A stretch of 64,000 nucleotides of DNA. Source: Woeseiaceae bacterium. Lineage in GTDB: Bacteria; Pseudomonadota; Gammaproteobacteria; Steroidobacterales; Woeseiaceae. The position numbers and the translations under genes were made by a program. The DNA lies in contig JAJFKU010000023.1 in the NCBI GenBank assembly GCA_021773035.1, positions 62,001-126,000 of the forward strand, given 5' to 3'. Below are positions 17,572 through 62,148 of this stretch, one piece after another; the first letter of the stretch is position 1; every line of letters starts with the position of its first letter. The notes under the pieces are model-generated. The model was not told the origin of the DNA. It ran no database searches and saw only the letters and a list, made by a program, of their open reading frames with translations.

Positions 17572-20271
17572 ATGAAAACCAAGTTCATTGCACCGATCGC
17601 TCGATTCAGAATGATCGGACGCGACAGCCTGCTGGAGTCCAGCGAAACCGGTCGCCTGGCGAAGCTCATGCTGGTCGCCGCTCCTGCCGGCTTCGGTAAA
17701 ACGACGTTGCTCATCCAGTGGCGGGAGCGCTTACTCGGCGAAGGCGTAACGGTAGCCTGGTTGTCGCTGGGCATGGAGGATCGCAGCACGGCGGCCTTAC
17801 TTCGGGATATCGTCGCGTCTATCCAGTTCGCAATGCCCGATTTCGGGTTACGGACCGCTCGCATCATCAACGGTACTGCACGTTTCGATATCACGCGCAC
17901 ACTCAACGATCTCGTTGACGACATCAGCGATACCGCACGGCCGGTAGTCCTGTTTCTTGACGACTATCATTGTGTGAGCAACTCGGAGACGGACGAGTTG
18001 ATCGAACTCCTCCTGAACCTCGCTCCCGCGAACTTCCAGATGACCGTGGCATCCAGAACACGTCCGCAGTTCGGCCTGGCGGCCTTGCGCGTCCACGACG
18101 AACTACAGGAAATCACCCCCACGCAGCTGCGACTGAACCTGTCCGAGGCAGCGGAATTTCTCACCGAGATTCGCCAACTGGAACTCAGCAACGAACAGGT
18201 CGCGAAAATTCATGAGCACAGCGAGGGCTGGGTTGCCGGGCTGCAGCTGGCATCATTGTCGCTGCGTGATCCGCATCGGCGCGACGGGTTCATCGATTCG
18301 TTTTCGGGGAGTCTGCAGGATATCTCCGAGTACATGGCGAGCGATGTGCTTAGCCAGCAGCCGGAACATATCCAGGAGTTTCTGCTGCGGACGTCCGTGG
18401 CTGAACGCGTAAGCGGCGACCTCGCCGCACATCTGACCGGAGCAGAAAACGCGCAGGAACTGCTGGAGGAAATCGAAAGAGACGGCCTGTTCGTCACACC
18501 GATGGATCAGGAACATGAGTGGTATCGCTACCATCAGTTGTTTCACGAGTTCCTGTTGACTGAATTGCGCCGTCGTCACCCGGGTGAGCTGGTGCGTTTG
18601 TATCGTACCGCGTCGCGCTGGTTTGAGAGTCACGGGCTGTCCGGAGAGGCGGTTGAGTACGGTCTGCTCGCAGGTGATTTCGAGAACGTCACTGCGCTGG
18701 TGGAAAAGCAGTCCTGGACAGAGCTCATGGCGGGTCACATCCCGCGGGTCACGGCGTGGATTCGCCGCATCCCCGAAACGGTTAGAAACGAAAACCCGAA
18801 GCTGCTCTACCTGCTGGGCACCGCGCTGTATCACGCCAATCAGGCTGATGAGAGCGAGAGCGTACTGCTCAGGCTACGATCCGTCGTCGAGAGTTTTGCC
18901 GAATCTTTCGAAGCAGACGAACTGGCCTATCTCCAGGAGCAAATGATCCTGCTCGCGGCTGGCATCGCCATCGCCAGGGACGACCCCAAGCTTATACACG
19001 AGCTGCTTTCTCACGAGTTCGGTCACCTCAACGATTTTGAGCGCGGACTGGTCTGCAATTTTCGCGGCTATGCGTTGGCTGAGTTCGCAGAATTTGGCAA
19101 GGCAGCAACGGTGTTGCGCGAGGCGCGCCGCTATCACATCGCAGCGGGTTCCGAGTTGGGCGCTATTTACGCGGAGTGTTTTCTGGCACTGACGGATTTC
19201 GCAAACGGTAACCTGGATCATTGTTTTGCACGTTTCTCCGCTGATAGCAGTAACTTCTCGGAGCAAAAGTACATCGCGCCGGTTCCGCAGGTCATCCAGG
19301 GTATTGTCTTGTATCAGTGGAACAGGATCGACGAGGCACTGGAGTGTCTGCGACCGAACTTGCCGCTAATCGGTGAGGTCGGCTTCACCAAACTGCTGGT
19401 CTTCGGCTATACGGCCCTCGCCAGGATCAGCGGTTTGCGTGGTGATCACAGGGCGGCAATGCGCTGCTACGACCTGATCGCTGACGTGGGCGCGCGCTGG
19501 GGCACGCCGTATGAGCGGCATCGCTCGCTGGTCGAGGGCGGGCGTATCGCGTATCTGCTGCAGTCCGAGCGGCTGAACGAAGCAATCGATCACGCGTTAA
19601 GTAACGAAATCGATGTGGATGCCGACAGCTGGGTCTTGCCGGCTCAGTGGGAGCGCGTTTCCTGCCGCAAGGCGCTGACGTGGGCCAGGCTGCAGATTGC
19701 GCTGGGCCGGCCGGATAATACACTGCCGGTGCTGGCGGAACTGCGCCAACTTGCAACGGAGTCGCGGCGTGGAATGCGGGTGTTGGAGTGTTACATCCTC
19801 GAGGCTCGGGCGAGATACGACCAGGACAAGGCAAAAGCGCGTGGCTTGATAGACGAGGCTCTCAACGTTGCCGCGCCGAATCGCTCCGTTCGCTGCTTCA
19901 TCGATGAAGGGCGCGAGATCGACTCTTTGCTACTGGATTCCCGGGAGGGCGAAATCGACAAGTGGCCAAGTTCAAAGCGAAGTTTCCTGGAAGCGATCAC
20001 GGTTTCAATCGCCTCTGAGAGCACGGCGGCCAGTCGCGAAGACTCACAGGCCGATAGCGTGGTTCGTGGTTTGATTGAACCGATCAGCGAGCGGGAGCGG
20101 GAGATACTTGACCTGATTGCCGCTGGCAGCACGAATAACGTGATATCTGAAACTCTGTTCATTAGCCAAAACACGGTCAAATGGCATTTGAAGAACATCT
20201 TCGGAAAACTCGGTGTCAGCAACCGGACATCGGCCGTTGCCGTCGCCCGGCAACTGTCTCTGCTAACCTGA
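17572..20271 (+). CDS. MalT-like (LAL-type) LuxR transcriptional regulator
   Basis: An 899-residue cytoplasmic regulator. The N-terminal STAND-type ATPase has Walker A APAGFGKTT near residues 37-45 and Walker B VVLFLDDYH near 125-133. A winged-helix-like region and a long TPR-like helical sensor (about 360-800) follow. The C-terminal LuxR helix-turn-helix spans about 838-895 (ISEREREILDLIAAGSTNNV, SQNTVKWHLKNIFGKLGVSN). MalT-type proteins bind a small-molecule inducer and ATP, then activate nearby genes. Only 44 bases separate its stop from the lipid-modification operon on the same strand, so it may regulate that operon or be cotranscribed. The ligand is unknown. Confidence 0.88.
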   Translation: MKTKFIAPIARFRMIGRDSLLESSETGRLAKLMLVAAPAGFGKTTLLIQWRERLLGEGVTVAWLSLGMEDRSTAALLRDIVASIQFAMPDFGLRTARIINGTARFDITRTLNDLVDDISDTARPVVLFLDDYHCVSNSETDELIELLLNLAPANFQMTVASRTRPQFGLAALRVHDELQEITPTQLRLNLSEAAEFLTEIRQLELSNEQVAKIHEHSEGWVAGLQLASLSLRDPHRRDGFIDSFSGSLQDISEYMASDVLSQQPEHIQEFLLRTSVAERVSGDLAAHLTGAENAQELLEEIERDGLFVTPMDQEHEWYRYHQLFHEFLLTELRRRHPGELVRLYRTASRWFESHGLSGEAVEYGLLAGDFENVTALVEKQSWTELMAGHIPRVTAWIRRIPETVRNENPKLLYLLGTALYHANQADESESVLLRLRSVVESFAESFEADELAYLQEQMILLAAGIAIARDDPKLIHELLSHEFGHLNDFERGLVCNFRGYALAEFAEFGKAATVLREARRYHIAAGSELGAIYAECFLALTDFANGNLDHCFARFSADSSNFSEQKYIAPVPQVIQGIVLYQWNRIDEALECLRPNLPLIGEVGFTKLLVFGYTALARISGLRGDHRAAMRCYDLIADVGARWGTPYERHRSLVEGGRIAYLLQSERLNEAIDHALSNEIDVDADSWVLPAQWERVSCRKALTWARLQIALGRPDNTLPVLAELRQLATESRRGMRVLECYILEARARYDQDKAKARGLIDEALNVAAPNRSVRCFIDEGREIDSLLLDSREGEIDKWPSSKRSFLEAITVSIASESTAASREDSQADSVVRGLIEPISEREREILDLIAAGSTNNVISETLFISQNTVKWHLKNIFGKLGVSNRTSAVAVARQLSLLT

Positions 20272-20315: not shown

Positions 20316-20639
20316 ATGTCGCTGATTGTTTTAGTTGCCGCCATTCCCTATCTCGCGATAGCTGGATACGATTTCTGGTTGCATGAAACCGACCGGCAGG
20401 TACCTCGCGCCGAGAGCGTTTTTCACGCCGGCATAGCCATCGGCGTAGCGGTGTTTTTGTGTGCCGCCGTCATGGGCTGGAATACCCTGGCCGCGGTGGC
20501 ATTGGTTCTACTGCTGATCGCCGCCATCGTTGACGAGCTGCGGTTTCACGGGGATCTGGATGTCCGCGAAAAGCGCTTGCACATGTTCGGCGGCCTGGCC
20601 CTGGCCTTTTGTATCGGAGTATGGCTTTGGACGATCTAG
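20316..20639 (+). CDS. Small integral membrane protein of unknown function
   Basis: A 107-residue protein with three or four predicted transmembrane helices (residues about 2-20, 32-52, 53-72, 88-106) separated by charged loops; the third loop HGDLDVREKRLHMFG is probably cytoplasmic. I do not recognise a family. It opens a run of tightly packed same-strand genes and overlaps the Lgt-like gene by 19 bases, so it is probably part of the same lipid-related operon and could be an accessory subunit of the Lgt-like enzyme. Confidence 0.75.
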   Translation: MSLIVLVAAIPYLAIAGYDFWLHETDRQVPRAESVFHAGIAIGVAVFLCAAVMGWNTLAAVALVLLLIAAIVDELRFHGDLDVREKRLHMFGGLALAFCIGVWLWTI

Positions 20640-21379
20640 TCGTCGGCGCAGACAGTATCGCGATCAATCCGATCTATGCGCTTTCAATTACGGCTGGATT
20701 CGCCTTTATTTTTCTGTTCCCGTTGACCAGGGACTTCACCAGTCCGCGCGAAAAAACGCAATACTATTATCTGCAGTTAATCACGCTCGTCGGCGCGGTG
20801 CTCGGTGCGAAGTTCGCGGTTCTCATGGGCGACGCTTTGTGGCCAATTCGTGCGTTTAACGATTGGCCCGCACTGTTGTATTCCGGGCGTTCGATCGTCG
20901 GTGCCCTGTTGTTTGGGTTCCTCTTCGCCGAGGCGGCGAAGCCGCTGATCGGCTATCGGCGTCCGCCAAACGATCGTTTCGCGATCCTGCTGCCATTTTC
21001 CATAGCGATCGGACGGATAGGCTGCTGGTTCGCCGGTTGTTGCCTCGGACTGCCGATAGAAGCCGGTTCGGGCAATCGATCTGAGCTTGCGCCGCTATTG
21101 CATCCGATCCCCCTGTATGAAATCGCGTTCCATCTGACGATCGGTACGATGCTCGTCCTGCTTTATCGCCGGCGTCGATTCAGCGGCCAGCTGTTTGCGA
21201 TATTCATGGTGGCCTATGGGACATTTCGATACGTATCGGAAACGCTACGCGCTACCGAGAAAGCCTTTTTTGGTTTGTCCGCCTATCAATGGTTCGCCGT
21301 AGCGCTTATTCTGGCGGGAATGCTGTCGTACTCTGCACGCCGCCAGAACAAAAAACCGGAGACCGCTTATGGAGCATGA
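20621..21379 (+). CDS. Prolipoprotein diacylglyceryl transferase (Lgt)-like membrane protein with altered motif
   Basis: A 252-residue polytopic membrane protein. The Lgt layout is visible: GRIG at 131-134 in the central signature, HPIPLYEI at 161-168, and a C-terminal YGTFRYVSE (199-207) like the YG..RF..E of Lgt. The conserved asparagines and glutamate of the true Lgt signature are replaced by a cysteine-rich GRIGCWFAGCCLG. It therefore belongs to an Lgt-like branch and may transfer a lipid moiety to something other than prolipoproteins. ATG 20621 (with GGAG just before) is preferred over TTG 20609. It overlaps both neighbouring genes. Confidence 0.8.
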   Translation: MALDDLVVGADSIAINPIYALSITAGFAFIFLFPLTRDFTSPREKTQYYYLQLITLVGAVLGAKFAVLMGDALWPIRAFNDWPALLYSGRSIVGALLFGFLFAEAAKPLIGYRRPPNDRFAILLPFSIAIGRIGCWFAGCCLGLPIEAGSGNRSELAPLLHPIPLYEIAFHLTIGTMLVLLYRRRRFSGQLFAIFMVAYGTFRYVSETLRATEKAFFGLSAYQWFAVALILAGMLSYSARRQNKKPETAYGA

Positions 21380-21533
21380 GTCTGAACCCAGGCTGGAGCA
21401 AGCCAACGAAGGGCCTGGCCCCGGGGACAATCCGGGCGGTTGTGGCAGCGTCATTCTAAAGCTCGTCGCGGGCGCCATAGTCGTTTTTTTCGTTGCGGTC
21501 GCATTGGTCTTCGGCGTTTGTCTGCTGGGGTGA
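21369..21533 (+). CDS. 54-residue single-pass membrane protein in the lipid operon
   Basis: A small open frame starting with ATG inside the last codons of the Lgt-like gene (11-base overlap) and ending 17 bases before the diiron gene. The product has an acidic, Gly/Pro-rich N-terminus (MEHESEPRLEQANEGPGPGD), a CGSVILKLV segment, then a strong transmembrane helix (about residues 32-53) with a Cys near the end. Overlap, spacing and the membrane helix support a real gene, though it is too short for family assignment. It may be a subunit or scaffold for the lipid enzymes. Confidence 0.65.
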   Translation: MEHESEPRLEQANEGPGPGDNPGGCGSVILKLVAGAIVVFFVAVALVFGVCLLG

Positions 21534-21550
21534 ACGGGTAGCGCCTGACA

Positions 21551-22264
21551 GTGATCGCCGGAATCATCAAGCGCCGCCTGCATCGCGATATTTGCCGCGA
21601 CCCTGTGTTACACGGCTTTGTTCTTAATCTCTATCTCAACGGCGAAGAGTATCCGCATCGAATCGATGACTACTTCCCGGTTTGGGCAGTGCCCGACGGG
21701 CACCTGTTATCGGCGATGCAAAGCCACATGCAGGATGAAGACAAACACGTCGTGTTGTACCGCAAGGCGATCAAAAAGATCGAGCAGCCGATTGTCGAGA
21801 TCCCTTTGCCGGAGGTATACAACGAAATTATTCGCAGCTACACGAAGGACTCATTTCGTATAGATCGACAAGACAGTGCGGACGACCGAACCTTGAAGCT
21901 GGCGGGATTTTTTGCGCACCTGCACTTTCTCGAAAAACGTATTGCCCGGTCCCTGGAGTTCCACCTCGACGGGTGCTCGTCAGCCGTCAGCGATTATCCC
22001 GAAAAGGTTGTCGAGATCGTGTTTGGTGACGAGCAGCATCACGTTAGCTACACGCGCGAAGCCGTGTTCCATTTGTTGCCCGCCGAACGGGCAAAAAAGG
22101 TTCTTGCGGATCATCGCAGGGCAGAGGCCCGGGCCAACCTCGATTTTTCGTCACAGCAGCTATCGCGATTGACGAAGGACTATTCGGATCGCTTTCCGCG
22201 CGCGACCCGGACTATCTACCGTTACGCGGGCGAACTGCTGGAGTGGGGCCTGCACTATGCTTGA
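21551..22264 (+). CDS. Ferritin-like diiron protein
   Basis: A 237-residue, mostly helical soluble protein. Candidate iron ligands have ferritin-like spacing: E63xxH66 (QDEDKH), E128 (HFLEKR) and E161xxH164 (DEQHH), fitting two ExxH motifs in a four-helix bundle. Such proteins act as oxygenases, desaturases or oxidases using O2 at a di-iron centre. I cannot match it to a named enzyme. GTG at 21551 is the start. Its last 8 bases overlap the radical SAM gene (ATGCTTGA), so it is coupled to the lipid operon, where it could oxidise a lipid chain or act as an electron or oxygen partner. Confidence 0.75.
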   Translation: MIAGIIKRRLHRDICRDPVLHGFVLNLYLNGEEYPHRIDDYFPVWAVPDGHLLSAMQSHMQDEDKHVVLYRKAIKKIEQPIVEIPLPEVYNEIIRSYTKDSFRIDRQDSADDRTLKLAGFFAHLHFLEKRIARSLEFHLDGCSSAVSDYPEKVVEIVFGDEQHHVSYTREAVFHLLPAERAKKVLADHRRAEARANLDFSSQQLSRLTKDYSDRFPRATRTIYRYAGELLEWGLHYA

Positions 22265-23807
22265 CCGGGTTGCCGTAGCGCCCGGCTCATCGGCCGTTCA
22301 TGAGCAGATTCGGTCGTTTCTCGCGGCCATGGATGCGGCCGCGGCGAGGCAGTACTTTCAGGTCGATACCGATGCGTCGCTGCTCAAGTCCACAATCAGC
22401 GTCTGCAATACCTGCCTGCAATACTGTGCGGCACTCGTTTTCGAAAGCGACAAGAAGGTCTGGCTAAGCGCGAATTGTAACGCTCATGGCCTGGCGACGT
22501 CGTTGCTCGAAAACGATGCCAGTTTCTATCGCTTGTCCAACAAGGACTGCTGGGGCGTTCGTTATGACCACGAACGGGTGTTTAATATTCCATCCTACTC
22601 ATCCTGTTGCGGCGGCAGCACCAGTTGCGGCGCTGCGACGTCAAAACCGACTTCGATAGCATCCGATCATCACGACCAGATGGCGAACAAGTCCTGCACA
22701 GTGCTGCTGGAGGTGACTAACGCGTGTAATCTGGCCTGCCGCGTCTGCTATGCCGACGCGAAGGGCGACCGAATCCTTTCGTTCGACGAGATTCAGGCCT
22801 TTATCGGTGACCTGATTCACAGCAAGGGGTTTCTTGACTCTGTGCAGATCACGGGAGGCGAGGCGACTATTCATCCGGACTTCTGGAGTATTGTTGAGTG
22901 GCTCTGTGCACAGGCCGGGATCGGGAAAGTCTATCTCCCGACCAATGGCGTTGAGTTCTCGAAGCCGGATATTGCTGCCCGGCTGCACAGATACCGTGAC
23001 AAGATCCTGGTGTTGTTGCAGTACGATGGTGCCGCGGAGGAAACCAACAGGGCCCTGCGCAGGGCGGATACTCTTCGTGTTCGGGAAAAGAATATTCGAA
23101 CACTCGACAAGCTCGGCGTCTGCATGCAGCTGACGATGACGATCGCTCAGGACATCAGCGAGGAGCAAATCGCCTGGGTTGTTGAGCAGGGGTTGAAGCA
23201 CCGCCATGTTCGGCTGGTGGGTATGTTGCCGACTTTCTACACCGGGCGTTATGAACTGGCTATCGACGATCGCCGCAGGCCGACCTTATCGACGGTCGTT
23301 AAAGCTATTGCTGCAGGCATGCCCGAGCGTGTTACCGCGGCGGACTTTATGCCAATTCCATGTAGCCACCCGAATTGTGGCTGGACAACCCTGTTCGCGC
23401 GCCGCTTTGGCCTTCTGTTCAATATTACGCAGCGTATCGATCTCGAGTCTGTCATGAACGAGGTTGCTTACAAAACGGTCCTGGATAAACAGGAAATCCA
23501 CTCCGTCATAGGCGGCGGCAGGTCAAGCTGGATCGGCCGGCTGCTAACCGCGGCAGGCCGCGCCCTTATCCGCCCGTCCGACGTCTTTGGCGTTGCTATC
23601 AAACCGTTCATGGATCGCTACAATTTTGACTACGACCGGGTTGCCAACTGCTGCCATCATATTCTGAATACTAAAGGCGAGTTGGTGTCGTTCTGCGAGT
23701 ACAATACGCTTCTGCGGGAATCGGATGCCTGGAGTGTAAAGCAGAAGCTGACGGGGCCGCATGCGAATGTTGCCAGGGCGGTCAGCGAGTCATTTAAGCG
23801 TGAGTGA
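22257..23807 (+). CDS. Tes-like radical SAM enzyme (COG1964-type)
   Basis: A 516-residue protein. The radical SAM cluster motif is C157xxxC161xxC164 (TNACNLACRVCYADAKG), followed by TGGEATIHP at 199-207 for SAM binding. The N-terminal part has a small zinc or iron-sulfur knuckle (C50xxC53, then C74 and H77) as in the family that includes archaeal tetraether synthase Tes and MJ0619. The C-terminal FMDRYNFDYDRVANCCHH and GELVSFCEYN also match that family and give further cysteines for auxiliary clusters. Tes joins lipid chains by C-C bonds between unactivated carbons. A lipid substrate is inferred from the family and from the two hydroxylase-like genes and Lgt-like gene in the same operon. Extra cysteines at 117, 118 and 124 are unusual. 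Confidence 0.85.
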   Translation: MLDRVAVAPGSSAVHEQIRSFLAAMDAAAARQYFQVDTDASLLKSTISVCNTCLQYCAALVFESDKKVWLSANCNAHGLATSLLENDASFYRLSNKDCWGVRYDHERVFNIPSYSSCCGGSTSCGAATSKPTSIASDHHDQMANKSCTVLLEVTNACNLACRVCYADAKGDRILSFDEIQAFIGDLIHSKGFLDSVQITGGEATIHPDFWSIVEWLCAQAGIGKVYLPTNGVEFSKPDIAARLHRYRDKILVLLQYDGAAEETNRALRRADTLRVREKNIRTLDKLGVCMQLTMTIAQDISEEQIAWVVEQGLKHRHVRLVGMLPTFYTGRYELAIDDRRRPTLSTVVKAIAAGMPERVTAADFMPIPCSHPNCGWTTLFARRFGLLFNITQRIDLESVMNEVAYKTVLDKQEIHSVIGGGRSSWIGRLLTAAGRALIRPSDVFGVAIKPFMDRYNFDYDRVANCCHHILNTKGELVSFCEYNTLLRESDAWSVKQKLTGPHANVARAVSESFKRE

Positions 23808-24561
23808 TTTCGCGCTGCGAATGGGCTTCAGTGCTCTTGTCGGGCTGGCGATAACAGCGGGCATCGTACTTGCCGCTCGTGAATACATAGAGGCTCGCCG
23901 CGGCGGGCGACCCATCGATGGTAAAAATATTCGACTCTCCCTGAGCGCGATCGGGCCAAACCTGGCGACCTACATCCTCGTGGCACCGTGGTGGGCGATC
24001 GCGTATCAGTCTGTCGCAGCCAGCGCCCCACAAACACTGCCGATCAACGCAGCGAGTTTGCTTATGGCTTTCGTCGCCTGTGATCTGAGCTACTACATCG
24101 AACATCGATGCGGACACCAGCTACGTTTTCTATGGCGCGCGCACCACGGAACGCATCACACTGGCGATGTTTACAATATTCCGCTGGCGTATCGGGTCAA
24201 CTTCGTCAATCAGTTCCTGTCGCCATTGTTTTACATACCGTGGTTGCTGCTCGGTTTGCATCCCCTGGTTGTGCTGGGTTTCCAGCTATTCGTGTTTCAC
24301 TTTCAGGCCTGGATACATACGGAAACGATTGGCCGGCTGGGAATCCTCGATCGGGTGTTTAACACGCCGGCAAATCATCGCATGCACCACAGTAGCGACC
24401 CCAAGCATCGGGCGGTGAACCTGGGCGGCGTGTTCATGCTGTGGGATCACCTGTTCCAGACCTATTGCACGCCGCAGGACGATGTCAGTTACGGTATCAA
24501 CAACGTTCCCGCGCCAACTACCTATTCCAGCATCTACACCGCGCCGTGGAAGACCGGGTGA
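23800..24561 (+). CDS. Fatty acid hydroxylase superfamily (sterol desaturase-like) membrane enzyme 1
   Basis: About 253 residues with four to five transmembrane helices and the histidine boxes that bind the di-iron centre: H102RCGH106, H115HGTHH120, H173 and NHRMHH at 192-197. Family members hydroxylate or desaturate sterols, fatty acyl chains or alkylglycerols. GTG 23800 is chosen because it overlaps the radical SAM stop (GTGAGTGA) like other junctions in this operon; ATG at 23761 or 23767 would give a longer overlap. Its stop overlaps the start of the second hydroxylase by four bases. Confidence 0.85.
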   Translation: MSDFALRMGFSALVGLAITAGIVLAAREYIEARRGGRPIDGKNIRLSLSAIGPNLATYILVAPWWAIAYQSVAASAPQTLPINAASLLMAFVACDLSYYIEHRCGHQLRFLWRAHHGTHHTGDVYNIPLAYRVNFVNQFLSPLFYIPWLLLGLHPLVVLGFQLFVFHFQAWIHTETIGRLGILDRVFNTPANHRMHHSSDPKHRAVNLGGVFMLWDHLFQTYCTPQDDVSYGINNVPAPTTYSSIYTAPWKTG

Positions 24562-25250
24562 CCGTGGCCGGAGCGCTGCAGACCTTGTTCGTTCGGGTGC
24601 GTCGACGCTGGCTCGATGTGACCTACTGGTTCCTGTTTACGCCGTTCATAACCGGCATGTTGACACGCCTTGCGACTATCGCCGCTTTCAGTTTGCTGGC
24701 CATGTGGGTTCCGCATCCTTTACTGTCACTCGGTTTCTGGATCGAACTGCTGCTGGCACTGCTGCTTGCCGATGTCGCCGGGTACTGGAGCCACCGGCTG
24801 CGGCATTGTGGTGTGCTCTGGTACTTTCATGCTATTCACCACTCAGCGACGGAACTCGATGCGCTGGCGGCTGCGCGAATGCATCCGGTTGACGACCTGC
24901 TCGATAATACCTGGGTAGGCGTCGTGCTGCTCCTTGCGGGGTTTTCACCGCAGGTCATATTCGCGGTCGGGCCGATACTGTTTATCCACATAGCCCTGAC
25001 GCACGCGGATGTGCCCTGGACGTTCGGGCCCTTGCGCAAGCTGCTCGTATCGCCGGCGCAACACCGTGCGCATCACGAAATCGGGGCGGCGCACAATTAT
25101 GCCGGCATGTTTTCGTTTATCGACGTCGTATTCGGTACCTACGCAGAGAGTTCGGGCAGGGACCATGGATCCGGGGAACCGATATCCGAGTCGCTATCCG
25201 GTCATCTCCTGTGGCCGTTGCAGAAACTCCGCTACATTTCCAGCAGGTAG
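24558..25250 (+). CDS. Fatty acid hydroxylase superfamily (sterol desaturase-like) membrane enzyme 2
   Basis: A 230-residue paralogue of the preceding gene, with boxes H79RLRH83, H91AIHH95, H109 and QHRAHH at 168-173. GTG 24558 gives a GTGA overlap with the upstream stop; longer readings run inside the other gene in another frame. Two different histidine-box oxygenases plus a ferritin-like protein in one operon imply several oxidation steps on a lipid. Its 3' end overlaps the convergent DUF5916 gene by 19 bases. Confidence 0.85.
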   Translation: MTVAGALQTLFVRVRRRWLDVTYWFLFTPFITGMLTRLATIAAFSLLAMWVPHPLLSLGFWIELLLALLLADVAGYWSHRLRHCGVLWYFHAIHHSATELDALAAARMHPVDDLLDNTWVGVVLLLAGFSPQVIFAVGPILFIHIALTHADVPWTFGPLRKLLVSPAQHRAHHEIGAAHNYAGMFSFIDVVFGTYAESSGRDHGSGEPISESLSGHLLWPLQKLRYISSR

Positions 25251-27403
25251 GTCGCTTTGATAATAATCTGATCCTGCGAAAAACGGTCGCTGGCGATCAG
25301 CCCGTCGCGCCTGTTCCTGTTGTAGACAACATAAAGATAGGACAGCGGTCGGTACTCCCACGACAGCCGGATGTTCCAGATGCTTCTGTCGACGAGGCTG
25401 TCCCACTGGTACGAACCCGTCATCTGCAGTCGTGGATTAAGCGCGAGGCGGGCGTTGATTCGATACAGGCGGGTGATCTCGCTCTCGGCGGCCATGCCGA
25501 GGTCCTCTATTCGGTTCAGCTGCAGATCGGCGGACAGCTCAAGCTGCGGTTTTGGTACGAAGCGGCCCGAGACCTTGTAGCTGGTAAGTCTGCCGTCGAA
25601 GTAGTCACCCGATTCAATCGAGATATCGCCACCGAGCTTCGCCGATTGATCGGTTTTCGCAAACACCCGCAGGCGTGTGTAGTCGTATTCGCCAGGCGCT
25701 ATCTCGATACCGGCCGGTGAAAATGAGGCCTCGAGCCGCTGTCGGTTGGGCTCCACCGTCAGATCGATCCGCGCGCCGGACTGAAAACGCAGTCGAAGCG
25801 GTCGAAGCGTTGCGTAGGCAAACAGCAAGTCGCCGTCGTCGGCGTCGCGAAACGAAAATATCGAGACTCCGGGATTAAAGCTTCGTATCGACTGCGGCAG
25901 TTTCGGCGATCGCAGGTCGATGCCGGCGGTCAGGCCGTTCATGACGTAGTTGGCGTCGAGAAGCTCGAGCCCGATGCCCGGATTGTAATCCTTGCTGTAG
26001 TAGTTGAGTGAGCTTATGGAGAGCCGGTTGTTACGATAGAAGCCCCACAGTTGAGCACCCAGACCGTCACCGCTTGCATCGTCATCGGACGCGGACACCA
26101 TGCCCTGTATGCTGAATGACTGCGTGGGTTGCCACAAGCCGTCCATCGTGTAGGTCGCGTTGCTGTTGATACCGTCATCCCGCCGGTAGGTCAGCATACC
26201 GCCCAGCCGGCTCTGCCCGGCGACGTTTCTCGAATATCGTGCCACGGCAAAATCTGTCGCGGGGTCTGTATTCTGCGCCCGTTGCCGCATTGCGAGCAGG
26301 CCAAGCTGCTGTTTTGACGACCGGCTCGTCAAGCGCAAACCACCGTCCAGCGGAATCGGGTTGCCGGCGTCATCGAGTCCGATTCGACGGCTGAAAAACG
26401 GTCGTATCCACTCGGTCACGCTGGCCGTGAAAATGTTGGCATTCTCGAGAAAGAACTGGCGCCGTTCCGGGAAGAACACGCTGAAGCGATCGAGATTGAT
26501 AACCTGCCGGTCGACGTCTGCCTGCGCGAAGTCGGTGTTCATGGTCACGTCGACGACGGTGTTCGGCGAAACGGCCCACTTGAGTTCGCCGCCGGTTTCG
26601 AACTCGGACGCGCTGCTCGACCCGGTTTCACGAAGCTGCTGCAGCAGGCCGTAGGGGTTGAACTGCAGGTTCGGTTTCGGCGGCGGCGTTTCGAAGCCGT
26701 ACAACTCGCCAGCGTAGGCCATGCGGTCAACTGAAAAGGCACGGGGAACAGCGGGCAGGCTGGCCTCCTCATTCAGGCTGCGAACATTGCGTGCAAAGAT
26801 CACCCCCAGGCGATCAGCTCCCGCCGGGTAGCGGAGATTGCGCCACGGTATGGCGATCTCCGCTATCCACCGATCACTGTGAACGCTTGTTTTGACGGTC
26901 CAGCGTGCATCCCAGTTCAGGTTGACTTCTGACGCATCGATGACTTCGAGGTCACGCTGATTGCCATAGGGAGTTGTCTGAAATACGACGGCATTGCGTT
27001 GGTCGAGAAAGCCGTCGATGGCGATACCGAACAGGTCGTTCTCGTCGAAGGAGAAATCGCGCTGCAGGTTCTGCACCCGTGTCGTATCCCGGGGCTGGTA
27101 ACAGATAGCTGCTATATACAGAGCGTGGTCATCGTAAGCGACATGTACTTGCGTAGCATAGGTGGAGCTTGTCTGCTGCAGCGGTTCTTTTTGTACGAAG
27201 TCGGAAATCGCCGTGGTTCGCTGCCAGATGGCCTCGTCCAGTTTGCCGTCGATTTCGATGTTGCCGTGCAGCGCTGTGGCTTGAAACAGCGTTCGTTCTG
27301 ATGGTGGTGGAAAGACACTCTGAGACGCTGCGCTCTCGGGCGGCAAGAACGCGATGCACATCGCGAGTAACGGCAGATATCGAATTCCTGAGTCTAGACG
27401 CAT
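25232..27403 (-). CDS. Exported CBM9-like/DUF5916 beta-barrel protein
   Basis: A 723-residue protein. A signal peptide (MRLDSGIRYLPLLAMCIAFL..) precedes a CBM9-like domain (about 45-215; IDGKLDEAIW, YDDHALYIAAICY, IAIPWRNLRYP) and a DUF5916 region rich in amphipathic strands that should form an outer-membrane barrel ending in YLLEM. ATG 27403, with GGGAG about 7 bases upstream, is chosen over longer readings because it starts the signal peptide. Proteins of this type are often near TonB or two-component genes and are thought to handle surface ligands, but no function is established. It is divergent from an OmpR-type regulator with shared TGTCG repeats. Confidence 0.85.
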   Translation of the reverse strand: MRLDSGIRYLPLLAMCIAFLPPESAASQSVFPPPSERTLFQATALHGNIEIDGKLDEAIWQRTTAISDFVQKEPLQQTSSTYATQVHVAYDDHALYIAAICYQPRDTTRVQNLQRDFSFDENDLFGIAIDGFLDQRNAVVFQTTPYGNQRDLEVIDASEVNLNWDARWTVKTSVHSDRWIAEIAIPWRNLRYPAGADRLGVIFARNVRSLNEEASLPAVPRAFSVDRMAYAGELYGFETPPPKPNLQFNPYGLLQQLRETGSSSASEFETGGELKWAVSPNTVVDVTMNTDFAQADVDRQVINLDRFSVFFPERRQFFLENANIFTASVTEWIRPFFSRRIGLDDAGNPIPLDGGLRLTSRSSKQQLGLLAMRQRAQNTDPATDFAVARYSRNVAGQSRLGGMLTYRRDDGINSNATYTMDGLWQPTQSFSIQGMVSASDDDASGDGLGAQLWGFYRNNRLSISSLNYYSKDYNPGIGLELLDANYVMNGLTAGIDLRSPKLPQSIRSFNPGVSIFSFRDADDGDLLFAYATLRPLRLRFQSGARIDLTVEPNRQRLEASFSPAGIEIAPGEYDYTRLRVFAKTDQSAKLGGDISIESGDYFDGRLTSYKVSGRFVPKPQLELSADLQLNRIEDLGMAAESEITRLYRINARLALNPRLQMTGSYQWDSLVDRSIWNIRLSWEYRPLSYLYVVYNRNRRDGLIASDRFSQDQIIIKATYLLEM

Positions 27404-27461
27404 TGCAGGGCTCCCGGTTATATGGAGCGAGCTACGATACGGGCGCATTGCGTATGAGGAT

Positions 27462-27525
27462 TGTCGGTCTCGACGCTCAATGTCGCGAGTTGTCGCAATT
27501 AGCGGTGTCGATACAATTTGCGACA
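27462..27525. promoter_or_regulatory. TGTCG repeat cluster in divergent promoter region
   Basis: TGTCG occurs at 27462, 27481, 27491 and 27506, with the reverse complement CGACA at 27521. The pair at 27481/27491 (TGTCGC, 10-base period) has the direct-repeat spacing used by OmpR-family regulators, and TGTCGCAA/TTGCGACA (27491-27498 and 27518-27525) form an inverted repeat. The cluster lies between the DUF5916 gene and the response regulator at 27559, so it may control both. Confidence 0.5.
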
Positions 27526-27558
27526 GCTTTTTTTTTGGCGCTGTACTAGAGTCCACCG

Positions 27559-30578: not shown

Positions 30579-31631
30579 TCAGTCCTTCGACATTTTCTCC
30601 TCTTTCCTGTCGATCAGTGCCTTGACCCTCACAATACGCGCTTCGATATTTTCTATCTCGGACTCCGCGGCCTCTTCGTCGGCCGCATCTGCACTGGCTT
30701 CCTTGCAGGCCTTCAGGCGTGCTTTTAGTTCCTCCAGGTTCTCGCGAAGATTCGATACGGATTCGGCTTTCGCAGCCTTATCAAACACCAGCGAGTCCGT
30801 CGATCTCGACGGGGATGGAGCGACAGGGCCGTCGCCAACTTCCGCGACGATGACCCGATCCTCATCCAGTGCGCGCGTATTCATAAATGTCGGTGAGACG
30901 ATTTCTATACCTTCCGCGTGCAGCGCATCCATCGTTCGCCCGCGCAGCTCGCGCCGCTTGTCCAACAGGTGGTTGACCTCTTTCAAAAGACCGGAGACCC
31001 GATAAGTGACAGAGTGGTCGCCGAGATCCCGTATCTGGACGAACGGGCTTTCCAGCCCGGTATCGATAGCCGCCTTTATAAGCAAGGTTTCGATCTGATG
31101 ACGCGACACATCGTAGCCGAGCGATAGCTGGACCGACAGAACCGTGCCCGAAGTTCGCATGACGCGAACCGGGTTTGTTACCAGATAGAGGTTCGGCAAC
31201 GTTGTCAGGTCGCGGTCTTCCGTCTGAATTTCGGTGTGCAACAAGTCCATTTCCGTGATTCGCCCGAAATAGTCGCCAACGGTTACGTAGCGACCCGGAC
31301 GACAGTTGCCGATTGTCTTGAGCATGATGCCCGCCATTACGTTGCCAACCAGCGTCGTTGACGATAGCGCGATCGTCGCACTGACGATGAGTCCATACAG
31401 GCTCAGCAGCTGGCCGCGGAGTATGTCGCCAAAAGGCATGAACAGGATTAGCAACAACACGGCGGCCAGGACGCCGCCGAGCTGTATCAGCTGCTGCCTG
31501 AATTTCAGGTGCGGTCGGCCCTCGAAATAGCTGACTAGGCGCCTGTTTGCGAACCCGAGGCCAAGCACCAGCAACATGCCAATAACAAATACTTGTACGA
31601 AGGTCAGTACGATGTTCATGCTGAAGTCCAT
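30579..31631 (-). CDS. MscS-family mechanosensitive channel with coiled-coil tail
   Basis: A 350-residue inner-membrane protein. Three N-terminal helices are followed by the MscS pore and beta domain (IALSSTTLVGNVMAGIMLK, RPGRYVTVGDYFGRITEMDL, LHTEIQTEDRDLTTLPN, LYLVTNPVRV). The C-terminus (about 270-350) adds a charged, Ala/Glu/Lys-rich coiled coil not found in minimal MscS. It is 7 bases past the App1-like phosphatase gene, so it closes a minus-strand operon starting at the sulfotransferase. The channel probably releases osmolytes under hypo-osmotic stress; a signalling role for the tail is speculative. Confidence 0.88.
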   Translation of the reverse strand: MDFSMNIVLTFVQVFVIGMLLVLGLGFANRRLVSYFEGRPHLKFRQQLIQLGGVLAAVLLLILFMPFGDILRGQLLSLYGLIVSATIALSSTTLVGNVMAGIMLKTIGNCRPGRYVTVGDYFGRITEMDLLHTEIQTEDRDLTTLPNLYLVTNPVRVMRTSGTVLSVQLSLGYDVSRHQIETLLIKAAIDTGLESPFVQIRDLGDHSVTYRVSGLLKEVNHLLDKRRELRGRTMDALHAEGIEIVSPTFMNTRALDEDRVIVAEVGDGPVAPSPSRSTDSLVFDKAAKAESVSNLRENLEELKARLKACKEASADAADEEAAESEIENIEARIVRVKALIDRKEEKMSKD

Positions 31632-31638
31632 TTTTCCG

Positions 31639-32730
31639 CTACCGGTGGGAGAGCGTCTGTGCTTGCTCGAAAAGCTGCCAGCGGTCCTGGTCGATGCCGT
31701 CGAACAAGGACTTGTACCGCGGGTCGTCGGCGCATTCCTGCGTTACGTTTCTGATGTAGATCTTCAGAATCCGATCGGGATACTCGCGCAACAAATCCGC
31801 ATAAACTTCCGGGTCATGTTCGCCGCTGTCGCCGACGAGAATAAACTGTCGCCCGGGATAAGTTGCCAGTATGTTCTCGATTACCGCGGGTTTCGTTTCC
31901 GTACCCTTCTTGAAGAGATTAAATAGCGTTTTGTCACGAAAACGTACCGACTTCAGACTAAGCGCCGGGCGCGGAAATCCTTCCTGTTCGAGAAACTCCA
32001 CGAGTGGCGTGTAAAGCTGCCATGGGCTTGACGAAACGAAGTGCAGACTGCTGTTGTGCTGCGACCAATCGTCATACAGCTCGGCCATGCCGGGCACTGC
32101 GCTGAAATCGAGCAGAAAAGTGTGTTCGAGAAGGCTGCTTCGCTGCCTGACGTTCGAGACCTTCACGGTGTCGTCGATATCGCTGATTATCGACAGTCCG
32201 TTTGGTGTGACGAGTAACACTTCACCCGAGAAGCGGCGCTTGTCGACGTTGCCGGTAACTGCGGTGTAGCGAATAAGCGAATCTTCCGCGAATGCCTCGA
32301 TGTCGGCCACGGGAACGACCAGCACCGTCTCGAAGTGTCCGTTGACGTTCGACGGTGGCAGAACGTGGTTGCGCCCGGCCAGAGAGATAACGATCTTCTT
32401 GCCGCGTTCGTTATCGGCAATCATCAGGTTGATTCGCCGTGTGAAATTGGCTTTCGTTTCACGGTCCGGTGCCAGGTCATACTCGGTTTTCAGTATCGTC
32501 GAGAAAAGCGCCTTGCGGGCGATACTGTTTTCGGGCTCGTATATCCAGCCGTGTATGGGTATGTGCCACTGCTGCTGCGCCTCATCGAGCCACGCCGTCG
32601 TGCGAAAAAATACGAGCTGCTCGTCGTTCTTTATGTTGGAGTAATTAGCCACAGCGGCCTCGACAGTTCCGGGATACAGGTAATATCCGAGGATAAGGGC
32701 AGATAGCAAAACTACAGCGTTCCTGAGCAT
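31639..32730 (-). CDS. App1-like phosphatidate phosphatase domain protein (DUF2183)
   Basis: A 363-residue protein with an N-terminal hydrophobic segment (LRNAVVLLSALILGYYLYPG) that is either a signal peptide or anchor. The C-terminal half is a HAD-like App1 catalytic domain with the DxDxT motif SDIDDTVKVSNV (D184, D186, T188), FVSSSPWQLY and RFILVGDSGEHDPEVY. Yeast App1 is a Mg-dependent phosphatidate phosphatase; bacterial members are uncharacterised. ATG 32730 is used because the upstream gene stops one base earlier (TGAGATG), making re-initiation likely. Context suggests a lipid-phosphate substrate outside the cytoplasm. Confidence 0.85.
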   Translation of the reverse strand: MLRNAVVLLSALILGYYLYPGTVEAAVANYSNIKNDEQLVFFRTTAWLDEAQQQWHIPIHGWIYEPENSIARKALFSTILKTEYDLAPDRETKANFTRRINLMIADNERGKKIVISLAGRNHVLPPSNVNGHFETVLVVPVADIEAFAEDSLIRYTAVTGNVDKRRFSGEVLLVTPNGLSIISDIDDTVKVSNVRQRSSLLEHTFLLDFSAVPGMAELYDDWSQHNSSLHFVSSSPWQLYTPLVEFLEQEGFPRPALSLKSVRFRDKTLFNLFKKGTETKPAVIENILATYPGRQFILVGDSGEHDPEVYADLLREYPDRILKIYIRNVTQECADDPRYKSLFDGIDQDRWQLFEQAQTLSHR

Positions 32731-32731
32731 C

Positions 32732-33712
32732 TCAGGGCAAGGTCGCCAGATATTGGGGGGCCAGCGAGACGTTGAGTGCCGCATTCAACACGCGCGCCGT
32801 GAACGTTCGTATTGCCGAACCCTGATTGCTTGCCAGCAGCAATTTTTCCGGCGGAAGACGCACGCTCTGGATCAGCTTCTCGTAGTGTGGCCAACCTTCT
32901 TCGGACTGCCCGTACAGGGACCACAGGCGGCGCCATTCGAAACGGAAATTCTGCAGCATGACCTCGAATTGCATAGCGATCTGCGGATTGTTTCCTCTGT
33001 GCGCCCGTAAGTCGAGTGCGATGTCCTGAGTCAGAGCATCGATCTCACCAGGGTGCATCACCAGAGGTGCGTTGTATTGCTCCGTTAGTATCGAAACCGA
33101 CTCACCTTCCTTGTAAGGAACTGCCCGGTCCGCGGCAATCGCCGGCTTTTTCGTCTGCCTTACACAGCGCCACTCCGACTCGCCGACCAGCTGCCAGAAC
33201 CCGGGGGAACCTGCCGTATCGACAACCAGATGGATACGGTTTTCTCCGGAATTATTTTCCACACGGTGCGCTTTCCACGAGTCAAATATCCAGGTTTCGC
33301 CGGCGGCCATGTGTACATGGGTGTCGCCGCAGTAGAAAAGTACCTCCGGATTGGTGATGATCGGTATGTGAATTCTGACGCGGTTGTACCAGTGGTAGTT
33401 AATGTCGCGATGCTCAGGCACAGCGCAGTTGCCGCCGAGGCCCATTAGCCGCGAACGGCCGTAAACCTCGCCGATCGATGCCAGCACCTGTTGAATATAG
33501 GGCGCACGTTGCAGTCGTTCGGTCACCTTCATGGGCCCGTTGAAACCGTCGTTCATTTCCCCGTTGAGTGAAATGAGCGGGATCGACGTGTTTCCCTCGA
33601 AACCGTGCGGATGTGGCATCCATTCCGATTCATCGAACGCCAGCACTTCCTGGCTGAGGCGTTCGACGTCGAATCTGAACGGTAGTCGTACGAATTCTGT
33701 CGGCAACCTCAT
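32732..33712 (-). CDS. Aspartyl/asparaginyl beta-hydroxylase-like 2-oxoglutarate dioxygenase
   Basis: A 326-residue protein whose N-terminal half is an Asp/Asn hydroxylase fold. Iron ligands are likely H101xD103 (VPEHRDINYHWYN) and H149 (SWKAHRVENNSGENRIHLVV), with R159 binding 2-oxoglutarate. Relatives include LpxO, which hydroxylates lipid A acyl chains, and uncharacterised peptide hydroxylases. The C-terminal half is helical without recognised domain. Its ATG overlaps the sulfotransferase stop (TGATG), and its stop sits one base before the App1-like start, so the three proteins are made together. Confidence 0.85.
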   Translation of the reverse strand: MRLPTEFVRLPFRFDVERLSQEVLAFDESEWMPHPHGFEGNTSIPLISLNGEMNDGFNGPMKVTERLQRAPYIQQVLASIGEVYGRSRLMGLGGNCAVPEHRDINYHWYNRVRIHIPIITNPEVLFYCGDTHVHMAAGETWIFDSWKAHRVENNSGENRIHLVVDTAGSPGFWQLVGESEWRCVRQTKKPAIAADRAVPYKEGESVSILTEQYNAPLVMHPGEIDALTQDIALDLRAHRGNNPQIAMQFEVMLQNFRFEWRRLWSLYGQSEEGWPHYEKLIQSVRLPPEKLLLASNQGSAIRTFTARVLNAALNVSLAPQYLATLP

Positions 33713-34650
33713 CAGGCGGCAACCTCGGTCGATAAGTCGAACTCATCCTGCGGCAGCTCGCTGGCCGAAGTTCTGATCAGCTCAACGGTGTCCTGCAGCC
33801 CCGGCAATACGCGGGCCAGTGCTGCTGCGTTACTGCGCCACTTGTCCGCTGCTGGCGGCGAAATCGTATACCGCGAAAGCTTCGACTCACCGCGATCCAG
33901 CGCCTCGAGAATTTCGACAGCGGATATACCGCAAAAGTTGCATATCGCCGTTACCGTCGCGGCGGGCGCCTGGACCTGCTGTCCGTAGCTCACCGCCATC
34001 CAGCGATCGCGATCCAGTTTAGTGAGCTCAGCGAGAATGCTCTCATTGGCTGCCTGCCATTGGAACGCCGTGATCTCTTCAAGCGATGCGTCTTTGTAGG
34101 ATTGCCAGCCGGTCGGCAACAGCAGCGACCAGGGTTTACCGCGTTCGGGCAGGGCGGGGTAGGTAACAAATCGCCCGGACTGCCAGGCTTCCATCATGCT
34201 ACTGATGTTTTCGCGCGGGTTTCTGTAGAGGTAGACGAACAACGCATCCGGGAAAATTGCATTCAGTAAAGACACGCGCAGGGCATTTTTCGGCGTTTTT
34301 TCAAGTAGCCGCGGTGGCCGGACCAGCGTCTCCTGTGCGTCCCGAATGCGCCGTCCTCCCGCGTCACGAAGCTTCTCGTAAAACCATGCCCGTATCTGCG
34401 CGTTTGCCTCCGGTATGGAGTCTTCGGCAGACAGCGCGTTGGAATCGCAAAAGCGCGTTCTCGGGTTGAATTGATTGAAGCGCTCGAAAATGCCGTGGCT
34501 TTCACCGCCGATGGTCCAGAAGTCGCTGCTTTGCGTCAGTGTTTCGAACAACAGCGTACTTCCCGAGCGTGGTGCGGCGAGAATGATGACGGGCCGGTCA
34601 AACGGGTAGGTTCCGCGCTTGAACGTGTTTCGGGGAGCTGTGACCGACAT
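33712..34650 (-). CDS. Sulfotransferase family protein
   Basis: A 312-residue PAPS-dependent sulfotransferase. The 5'-phosphosulfate loop is PVIILAAPRSGSTLLFETL near residues 20-38, and the 3'-phosphate site is the FVYLYRNPRENISSM segment near 133-147. The remainder is helical and variable as in the family. It is first in a minus-strand operon with the hydroxylase-like enzyme, App1-like phosphatase and MscS channel. A hydroxyl made by the hydroxylase could be the sulfate acceptor, but that is inference; no PAPS synthesis genes are visible here. Confidence 0.87.
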   Translation of the reverse strand: MSVTAPRNTFKRGTYPFDRPVIILAAPRSGSTLLFETLTQSSDFWTIGGESHGIFERFNQFNPRTRFCDSNALSAEDSIPEANAQIRAWFYEKLRDAGGRRIRDAQETLVRPPRLLEKTPKNALRVSLLNAIFPDALFVYLYRNPRENISSMMEAWQSGRFVTYPALPERGKPWSLLLPTGWQSYKDASLEEITAFQWQAANESILAELTKLDRDRWMAVSYGQQVQAPAATVTAICNFCGISAVEILEALDRGESKLSRYTISPPAADKWRSNAAALARVLPGLQDTVELIRTSASELPQDEFDLSTEVAA

Positions 34651-60768: not shown

Positions 60769-62148
60769 ATGAATATCGGCACCATCCTGATCGTCGACGA
60801 CGACGAGGACATCCTGACGGCTGGCCGCCTGCTGTTGCGGCGCCGCTTTGCGGAGGTGGTGACCTGCAGTAATCCAGAGCAGGTGCCGGCGCTACTCGCT
60901 AAACGCAGTTTCGACGCGGTACTGCTGGACATGAATTTCGGCCCCGGGGAATCCACCGGGGCCGAAGGCCTCGCCTGGCTGGAGCGCATACTGGAGGTGG
61001 ACCCGCAGGTCGTTGTTGTCATGATTACCGCTCATGGGAGCGTCAATACCGCCGTGGAAGCGATGAAACGCGGCGCAACGGATTTCATCGCCAAGCCGTG
61101 GCAGAACGAAAAAGTTGTCGCCACCGTATCCGCAGCGGTTGAACTGCGCCGTAGCCGGGCGGAGGCGAGCACATTACGGCAAACGAACCGGGTGTTGCTG
61201 GAAGAGGCCGTGGCAGGCAACGACATCATCTCCAAGTCGGTCGAAATGGACCGCGTTCTCGCCGTCGTAAAGCGTGCGGGACCGACCGACGCGAACGTGC
61301 TGATACTGGGTGAGAACGGCACCGGTAAAGAGCTCATAGCAAGAGAATTGCATCGGGCGTCAAAACGGGCGGGGAAGGTTTTCCTTACCGTCGATATGGG
61401 CTCAGTCAGCGAAACGCTGTTCGAGTCGGAGTTGTTTGGCCATAAGAAAGGAGCGTTCACGGACGCTAACGAGGATCGTCTCGGCCGCATGCAGGCGGCG
61501 AACGGCGGCACTCTGTTTCTCGATGAAATCGGTAATCTTCCGCTGCATCTGCAGGCGAAGCTGCTGCGTGTGCTGGAGCAGCGCAGCGTCACACCGGTTG
61601 GCTCTGACGAGTCGCACGAAATCGATGTGCGGGTGATCGCCGCAACCAACGTTCCGCCACAACAGTTAAAGAACCCGGAGCATTTTCGGCAGGATCTTCT
61701 GTTCCGCCTGAATACCGTGGAATTGACGATTCCGCCACTGCGGGACAGAAAGGACGATATCGTACCTGTCGCCGAACATTACATGGCAATGTATTCGAGA
61801 AAATACGGTGGCAAGTCGCGTTGTCTGTCGGCGGCGGCGTTGGAGGCGTTGCGGGCTTACTCCTGGCCTGGCAATGTGCGGTCCCTTCGGCATGCGGTAG
61901 AGCGTGCTGTCATCCTCGCCGACAGTGAAACTATCGAACCACGTGACCTGCAGCTCGATTACAGTGCGCCAGCCGAAGAACCGCGGCAAACAGGCTCTGC
62001 TCCGGCGATCCTCAATCTAGACCGGATGGAGCGGGAAACGATTCAGAAAGCGCTGCGTAAACATGGGTTCAATATTTCGCGAACTGCAGGTGAACTCGGG
62101 TTGACTCGCGCCTCGTTGTACCGACGCATGGAAAAGCATGATCTTTAA
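60769..62148 (+). CDS. NtrC-family sigma54-dependent response regulator
   Basis: A 459-residue activator. The receiver has the acidic pair D10-D12, phosphoacceptor D54 (VLLDMNFGPG) and K105-region FIAKPWQN. The AAA+ domain has Walker A GENGTGKE near 181-188, Walker B TLFLDEIGN, and the sigma54 contact loop reads GAFTDA instead of GAFTGA. A Fis-type helix-turn-helix (about 425-458; ISRTAGELGLTRASLYRRME) ends it. ATG 60769 has AAGGAG 10 bases upstream. The stop overlaps the kinase start by 11 bases. It most likely activates the divergent export operon. Confidence 0.92.
   Translation: MNIGTILIVDDDEDILTAGRLLLRRRFAEVVTCSNPEQVPALLAKRSFDAVLLDMNFGPGESTGAEGLAWLERILEVDPQVVVVMITAHGSVNTAVEAMKRGATDFIAKPWQNEKVVATVSAAVELRRSRAEASTLRQTNRVLLEEAVAGNDIISKSVEMDRVLAVVKRAGPTDANVLILGENGTGKELIARELHRASKRAGKVFLTVDMGSVSETLFESELFGHKKGAFTDANEDRLGRMQAANGGTLFLDEIGNLPLHLQAKLLRVLEQRSVTPVGSDESHEIDVRVIAATNVPPQQLKNPEHFRQDLLFRLNTVELTIPPLRDRKDDIVPVAEHYMAMYSRKYGGKSRCLSAAALEALRAYSWPGNVRSLRHAVERAVILADSETIEPRDLQLDYSAPAEEPRQTGSAPAILNLDRMERETIQKALRKHGFNISRTAGELGLTRASLYRRMEKHDL

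Follow-up and report, generated by a model that had tools for sequence, protein, structure and literature searches.

The 64,000-nucleotide stretch analyzed here (the window; positions 62,001 to 126,000 of contig JAJFKU010000023.1 in assembly GCA_021773035.1, from a Woeseiaceae bacterium) carries at positions 20316-25250 seven reading frames, all on the + strand, that a first-pass annotation had described as a putative lipid-remodeling operon built around a Tes-like radical S-adenosylmethionine (SAM) enzyme and an Lgt-like membrane protein. The frames, whose starts were picked by inspection, are g1 (20316-20639), an open reading frame of 107 residues; g2 (20621-21379, ATG start, 252 residues), the Lgt-like membrane protein; g3 (21369-21533, 54 residues), a single-helix protein ending in ..VFGVCLLG; g4 (21551-22264, GTG start, 237 residues), ferritin-like; g5 (22257-23807, 516 residues), a radical SAM enzyme related to Tes and TrsS; g6 (23800-24561, GTG start, 253 residues), of the FA_hydroxylase superfamily; and g7 (24558-25250, GTG start, 230 residues), a second protein of that superfamily. 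Spacings from g1 to g7 are successively -19, -11, +17, -8, -8 and -4 bases, so the tight one-strand packing noted earlier holds, with every frame overlapping its neighbor or lying 17 bases from it. Pfam gave no family above cut-offs for g1, g3 or g4.

Copies of the operon were sought by a peptide-pattern scan of genome contigs from 84,980 species with g5 as sole query; the scan used six patterns from this one protein and may miss operon orthologs. It returned 19 loci, namely two orthologs (L020, from Bin_66_1, 54% identity; L021, from a Lysobacterales metagenome-assembled genome, 57%) and 17 others at 21-29% identity. By tblastn, g1, g2, g4, g5 and g6 lie in identical order in L020 and L021, and the operon is for this reason more than a chance arrangement; synteny limited to this strain, which the first-pass annotation had named as refuting, is excluded. 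The position of g3 is occupied in both by a small helix gene, identified only by its location, its size and its motif, and tblastn with g3 against the two loci gave no match at E <= 0.01. A separate g7 is absent from both, since the g7 matches there land on g6, and g7 was accordingly ruled out as a member of the conserved unit. Both predicted hydroxylase genes are present as claimed, each with the PF04116 domain, but g6 alone belongs to the conserved unit, and among the three operon copies g7 occurs only in the window.

Genes flanking the operon differ among the copies, as judged by reading. GC content of the operon is 36% in L021, below flanks of 43 and 48%, whereas it is 63% in L020, as in the flanks, and 57% against 58% in the window; from this comparison the operon is read as old and as having moved. 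Copies are rare: in 119 genomes of relatives, 369 of the class and 398 of the phylum (overlapping samples, each counting the own genome), g5 had no ortholog outside the window's own genome, and a plasmid search with g5 gave 8 records with a best identity of 26%. Matches to g4 were confined to the window's genome among 369 genomes and to L021's own genome among 39 of its family, and those to g1 to the window's genome among 89.

The g2 protein carries the LGT domain (PF01790, 3.2e-24, above cut-off) and scores 41.3 bits against the Lgt model TIGR00544, below the cut-off of 118.9. When the three operon proteins and 17 other Lgt-like proteins were aligned to E. coli Lgt, Arg143, Tyr235, Arg239 and an acidic residue at position 243 (Glu or Asp) were kept in 20/20. 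Asn146, which like His103 is essential in E. coli Lgt, has become Cys in all 20. Arg143, Tyr235 and Arg239 form part of the E. coli pocket for the glycerol moiety of phosphatidylglycerol, and no tested variant of His103 complements (PMC4728403; this and the other papers cited here are drawn on in excerpt). As far as sequence tells, g2 is thus not Lgt by activity, the essential histidine being absent. On the loss of His103, together with the separate canonical Lgt found in each of the three operon genomes, g2 was rejected as a second ordinary Lgt. The earlier description as Lgt-like is retained for the domain and the pocket residues and dropped for the activity: lipid binding by g2 is likely from the residues retained, and ordinary lipoprotein transfer unlikely. 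A tree of Lgt proteins did not resolve whether g2 of the operons and the wider Lgt-like proteins form a single clade against canonical Lgt.

Beyond the operon itself, an Lgt-like gene was found just upstream of hits about 30% identical to g5 in 17 of 20 cases, the own genome excluded: 6/9 from the class sample and 11/11 from the phylum sample, the latter including five genomes of one genus. Counted among the 17 is genome G635 (L060, L091), where one gene stands between the Lgt-like and radical SAM genes. The reverse search of the 398 phylum genomes, with an alignment of 10 Lgt-like proteins as query, returned 15 genomes, comprising the own genome, the same 11 radical SAM carriers, and three weak matches (about 1e-26), each a canonical Lgt by its HGG and GRxGNFINGE. 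Lgt-like genes at E <= 1e-60 accordingly occur in exactly the 11 non-own genomes that have the radical SAM gene at E <= 1e-30. The two genes also lie side by side on plasmid pPP1 of Persicobacter psychrovividus NBRC 101262 (Bacteroidota; L074). Given the upstream position in 17/20 and the identical carrier sets, this Tes-like branch and the Lgt-like gene go together well outside the operon.

Small g3, to which no weight had been given earlier, turned out to be a recurrent third partner. It has a G-x-C motif at the end of its membrane helix. A first script took same-strand open reading frames of 35-200 residues with [GSA]-x-C after a hydrophobic stretch, over the 17 Lgt-linked loci and 15 others (L022, L027, L031-L038, L005, L009 and L010 lying outside its scope), and matched 12/17 against 0/15 (Fisher p 3e-5), as well as L020 and L021. 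Reading by eye was then added for L057, L058, L061 and L063, and for L060 on a longer stretch, which was not even-handed. A second, broader script used stop-to-stop frames and treated both locus sets alike; it matched 16/17 Lgt-linked loci against 3/26 without a visible Lgt (Fisher p 6e-8; flanks are short at L005, L009, L022, L026 and L033 of the 26) and 2/2 operon relatives. The sole Lgt-linked miss was L063, where SGTC is seen by eye, for 17/17 in total; Persicobacter L074 scored 0/1 by the script, with GTGIC visible by eye. The candidate at L048, with three hydrophobic stretches, is the weakest of the set.

Twenty-one g3-type ends were aligned, from the 17 loci, Persicobacter and the three operon copies. 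Position -2 to the cysteine is G in 19/21 and S in 2/21 ([GSA] at this position was a search condition, the excess of G was not). Lys or Arg precedes the helix in 20/21, from which the cysteine would be expected to lie on the outer side of the membrane. At position -1, 13/21 have none of G, A or S, and the residues after the cysteine, on which no search condition was placed, are mostly hydrophobic. The lipobox being [LVI][ASTVI][GAS]C (PMC4728403), the g3 motif, judged by its residues, is not a lipobox of that form. At L062, the radical SAM match is followed, at a distance of about 119-390 bases, by two consecutive small G-G-C helix proteins, as if duplicated, and L040, L054 and L055 likewise have two small helix frames behind the radical SAM gene.

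The g5 protein matches Radical_SAM (1.2e-16) and the HMPTM zinc ribbon PF23545 (1.5e-9) in Pfam, and its best sequence match in the PDB is the lipid-coupling enzyme 7TOL (2e-35). It has the rubredoxin motif C50x2C53x20C74x2H77 and the radical SAM motif C157x3C161x2C164, both kept in 3/3 operon members and corresponding to the Cx2Cx20Cx2H and CX3CX2C motifs of Tes (PMC9433317), and it retains the C-terminal cysteines. Against the Tes model NF045702 it scores 167.4 bits, where the cut-off is 450 (orthologs L021 158.6, L020 171.5); L027, L031 and L025, two archaeal rows and one from Phycisphaerales, exceed that cut-off in the same test. Its best NCBIfam score is for TrsS (NF045646, 193.5 bits, cut-off 490), a cut-off passed at no locus whose radical SAM gene was scanned. 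By curated scores, then, g5 is neither Tes nor TrsS, and the label Tes-like stands for the motifs and the 7TOL match while falling short on score, on the N-terminal cluster motif, and on two residues invariant in archaeal Tes. The first-pass annotation had named clustering with non-lipid enzymes such as pterin methyltransferases as a refuting outcome; this worry was rejected, as MJ0619, the family's 'pterin methyltransferase', has since proved to be the tetraether synthase (PMC9433317).

A radical SAM tree was built from 48 rows (L022, L037 and L038 left out; L005, L009 and L010 labelled methyltransferase-linked by kinship, their neighbors unread). Ten Lgt queries matched nothing at the last three, which are short loci. 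The three operon rows form one clade with support of 100, which a paralog in the window's own genome joins with support of 97, on a long branch and with a tool warning. As drawn, the operon clade has rows from archaea and Phycisphaerae as neighbors, at a fork with support of 0, and the deep forks of the tree were not resolved. At L013 (G253) and L007 (G093), the searches reported one in-frame TGA each in the radical SAM match. The related family TrsS includes selenoproteins; the TGA may reflect a selenoprotein link, or only a match running past a stop.

Three of the 20 distant hits, L043, L045 and L047, are without an Lgt-like gene. A DUF547 gene accompanied by a methyltransferase is found at L043 and L045 (confirmed by Pfam at L043, by eye at L045), and L047 carries another radical SAM gene along with a short-chain dehydrogenase. 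The ten Lgt queries found nothing at these three loci, nor at seven close-relative hit loci, in four of which the neighbors were read and a methyltransferase lies beside the radical SAM gene in 4/4. The own-genome paralog lies beyond the window (G000:C34, L039:8008-10264) and has 29-32% identity to g5; the gene behind it encodes a methyltransferase in which an SCC motif stands close to the start, a pair that recurs in relatives. The same pair was seen on a plasmid from Mycolicibacterium, where CcdA and a disulfide oxidoreductase are close by.

The remaining proteins of the operon are putative metal proteins or oxygenases. In g1, four predicted membrane-type helices each have an acidic residue-x-x-x-His pair (D19-H23, E33-H37, E74-H78 and E85-H89), all invariant in 3/3 operon copies. 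Its structure model (predicted local distance difference test, pLDDT, 91.6) matched no solved fold with E <= 0.001, and a sequence profile against PDB and Pfam led nowhere; with the paired residues, a metal site in the membrane is possible. The ferritin-like assignment of g4 was upheld by an AlphaFold model (mean pLDDT 87.5) and structure comparison. Invariant residues E32, E63xxH66, E128 and E161xxH164 in the predicted helical bundle give the E, ExxH, E, ExxH pattern of ferritin-like diiron oxygenases, and g4, which has no Pfam or NCBIfam match, is by its model a probable diiron oxygenase. Its best-scoring folds include enzymes that oxidize hydrophobic chains. Both g6 (1.2e-22, 81.2 bits) and g7 (4e-25, 89.2 bits) are well above the PF04116 cut-off of 31, with histidine boxes HRCGH, HGTHH and HRMHH in g6 and HRLRH, HAIHH and HRAHH in g7; the two are 29% identical over 130 residues.

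These findings are tentatively brought together, at somewhat under an even chance, as an inner-membrane system for the radical modification of a lipid, in which g2 and g3 would present a lipid or a lipidated cysteine to g5, with g4 and g6 oxidizing. The retained arginine pocket of g2 would bind a phospholipid, probably phosphatidylglycerol, and g3 would join g2 with its cysteine located at the end of the membrane helix; g2 and g3 would hold, for g5, either this lipid or one attached to the cysteine of g3 (or g2). The g5 enzyme would generate a 5'-deoxyadenosyl radical and activate an unreactive C-H bond of the chain, and g4, g6 (in the window g7 too) and perhaps g1 would oxidize the same product. 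A chain-coupled or hydroxylated lipid is a possible product on this evidence. Gene conservation, linkage, lost and kept residues, and predicted folds are the basis from which we infer the complex, the lipid substrate, the order of steps and the product. In a more specific and rather unlikely form of this proposal, the histidine-less Lgt-like protein and the G-x-Cys helix protein would be a lipid-tethering platform for a Tes-related enzyme, with chains rebuilt on the cysteine, and the window version would be the most elaborate, an oxygen-using one with up to four more metal proteins. Of the lipid pathway envisaged by the first-pass annotation, the conserved unit and the Lgt-like/Tes-like linkage are supported, while Lgt and Tes as activities are not.

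Several observations weigh against such a system. His103 is replaced in 20/20 Lgt-like proteins, g2 included. A CPxxCGxC-type match to the [Fe4S4]N motif (Cx3Cx2C plus His) is absent in 3/3 operon members, which have SCC.. at that place, and K449 and I469 of g5 stand in place of Met439 and Tyr459, which are invariant in archaeal Tes (PMC9433317); as M439A Tes retains activity (PMC9433317), the lack of these two residues does not decide function. The small g3-type proteins have little in common beyond the motif, and the second script also matched L045, L034 and L022 among loci without a visible Lgt. The L045 match is a DUF547 protein whose lipoprotein signal looks ordinary, and that at L034 lies inside a 310-residue archaeal frame. 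At L022, a g3-type protein (..AFCGVCSGCVLI..; region of L022:1500-1520) closely follows the radical SAM gene, and with 24 bases between the start of that gene and the contig end, an Lgt-like neighbor could not be visible; such a gene is predicted beyond the contig end. A tie to Lgt does not extend to the whole enzyme family, since some relatives of g5 adjoin a methyltransferase and have no Lgt-like gene within reach. Peptides are the substrates of many radical SAM proteins, and the role of g3 could be that of substrate instead of holder.

This last alternative, which we regard as doubtful, has g2 or g5 attaching a lipid or carbon chain to the g3 cysteine, or g5 cross-linking it, with the oxygenases finishing a hyper-modified lipopeptide. 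The Lys or Arg before the helix in 20/21 and the cysteine at its far end in all g3-type proteins are somewhat like a lipoprotein signal, the cysteine of which is the normal target of Lgt (PMC4728403), and g5 is weakly akin to the peptide-modifying radical SAM enzyme SkfB (1.7e-6). The same sequences, however, lack a lipobox, given the residues at -2, at -1 and after the cysteine set out above, and the catalytic histidine by which g2 might transfer a lipid is missing. Quite unlikely, from sequence comparison, is a bacterial synthase of tetraether or membrane-spanning lipids in which g5 would join two chains in the manner of Tes, with headgroup and hydroxylation adjusted by the products of the remaining genes. 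Bacterial Tes homologs have been proposed as makers of membrane-spanning lipids (Zeng et al. 2022, PMC8941075), Tes is the top PDB sequence match of g5, and in the drawn tree the operon clade adjoins rows from archaea and Phycisphaerae, three of which were scored and all pass the Tes cut-off; yet that is the fork with no support, and g5 reaches 167 of the 450 bits and is missing the [Fe4S4]N motif and both archaeal-invariant residues.

Lost catalytic residues in the Lgt-like protein would also suit a scaffold, and the operon could then serve maturation of a membrane cofactor, pigment or redox protein, with g2 and g3 simply anchoring the radical enzyme. The methyltransferase-linked relatives of g5 fit with this by suggesting other chemistry elsewhere in the family. 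Retention of the lipid pocket residues in 20/20, and the fact that FA_hydroxylase-family proteins usually act on lipids, argue against it, and we consider it improbable.

Around the operon, a gene for a MalT-like LuxR-family regulator (17572..20271, + strand, 899 residues; Pfam TPR_MalT 2e-28, GerE 1.5e-18) ends 44 bases upstream of g1 and could possibly regulate it; none was seen in the inspected neighborhoods of L020 and L021, and the regulator is outside the conserved unit. A sigma-70 scan of the window gave 3 sites against 2.9 in shuffles, that is, no excess, while terminator-like sites numbered 14 against 5.7, mostly within genes, and Rfam and tRNA scans of the window yielded no lead. Convergent with g7, with a 19-base overlap, is a gene for a CBM9/DUF5916 protein (25232-27556, - strand) of which a second copy (63%) is elsewhere in the genome. 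About 5 kb from the operon, a compact group at 30579-34650 (- strand) contains genes for a mechanosensitive channel, an APP1-type phosphatidate phosphatase, an Asp/Arg hydroxylase and a sulfotransferase, and is possibly concerned with lipids or surface chemistry too. A partial reprolysin-like metalloprotease with DUF11 domains lies at the window start (33-1307, + strand). An anti-phage function was considered and set aside: PADLOC, given six of the seven proteins (without g3), matched g5 alone, to viperin models.

Among the literature matches listed, in which subscription papers are thinly covered, none described a Tes-like radical SAM gene with an Lgt-like gene as its neighbor. In its excerpted text, PMC7641849 names LGT and radical SAM genes, but in different neighborhoods of other genes. 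Bacterial Tes homologs are already known and have been reported as possible signs of producers of membrane-spanning lipids, a proposed role (PMC8941075, PMC11868695). The parts of the operon are relatives of known families, and the combination is, as far as the literature matches listed show, new to us. Two implications follow for the wider group: a large set of Tes homologs goes with a histidine-less Lgt-like protein and a cysteine helix protein, which gives a concrete prediction of where the lipid is held, and a distant Tes match in a bacterium need not imply a tetraether lipid.

In summary, each protein with a known counterpart resembles it in part. The Tes enzyme (GDGT-MAS, MJ0619) shares sequence kinship across most of g5 and the rubredoxin and CX3CX2C motifs, whereas g5 is below the Tes cut-off, without CPxxCGxC, and with Met439 and Tyr459 replaced; TrsS gives the top NCBIfam score of g5, which at 193.5 bits is far under 490. 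Lgt shares with g2 the PF01790 domain and R143, Y235, R239 and E243, but His103 and Asn146 are gone in 20/20 and the operon genomes carry canonical Lgt besides. MiaE and aldehyde-deformylating oxygenase have the helical fold and the E, ExxH, E, ExxH pattern of g4, but the top two structural alignments each show 12% identity, and g4 itself has no family match. Finally, the ornithine-lipid hydroxylase OlsE and the FA_hydroxylase superfamily have the three histidine boxes of g6 and g7, which by curated scores (62.8 and 70.1 bits against the OlsE cut-off of 475) are nonetheless not OlsE.

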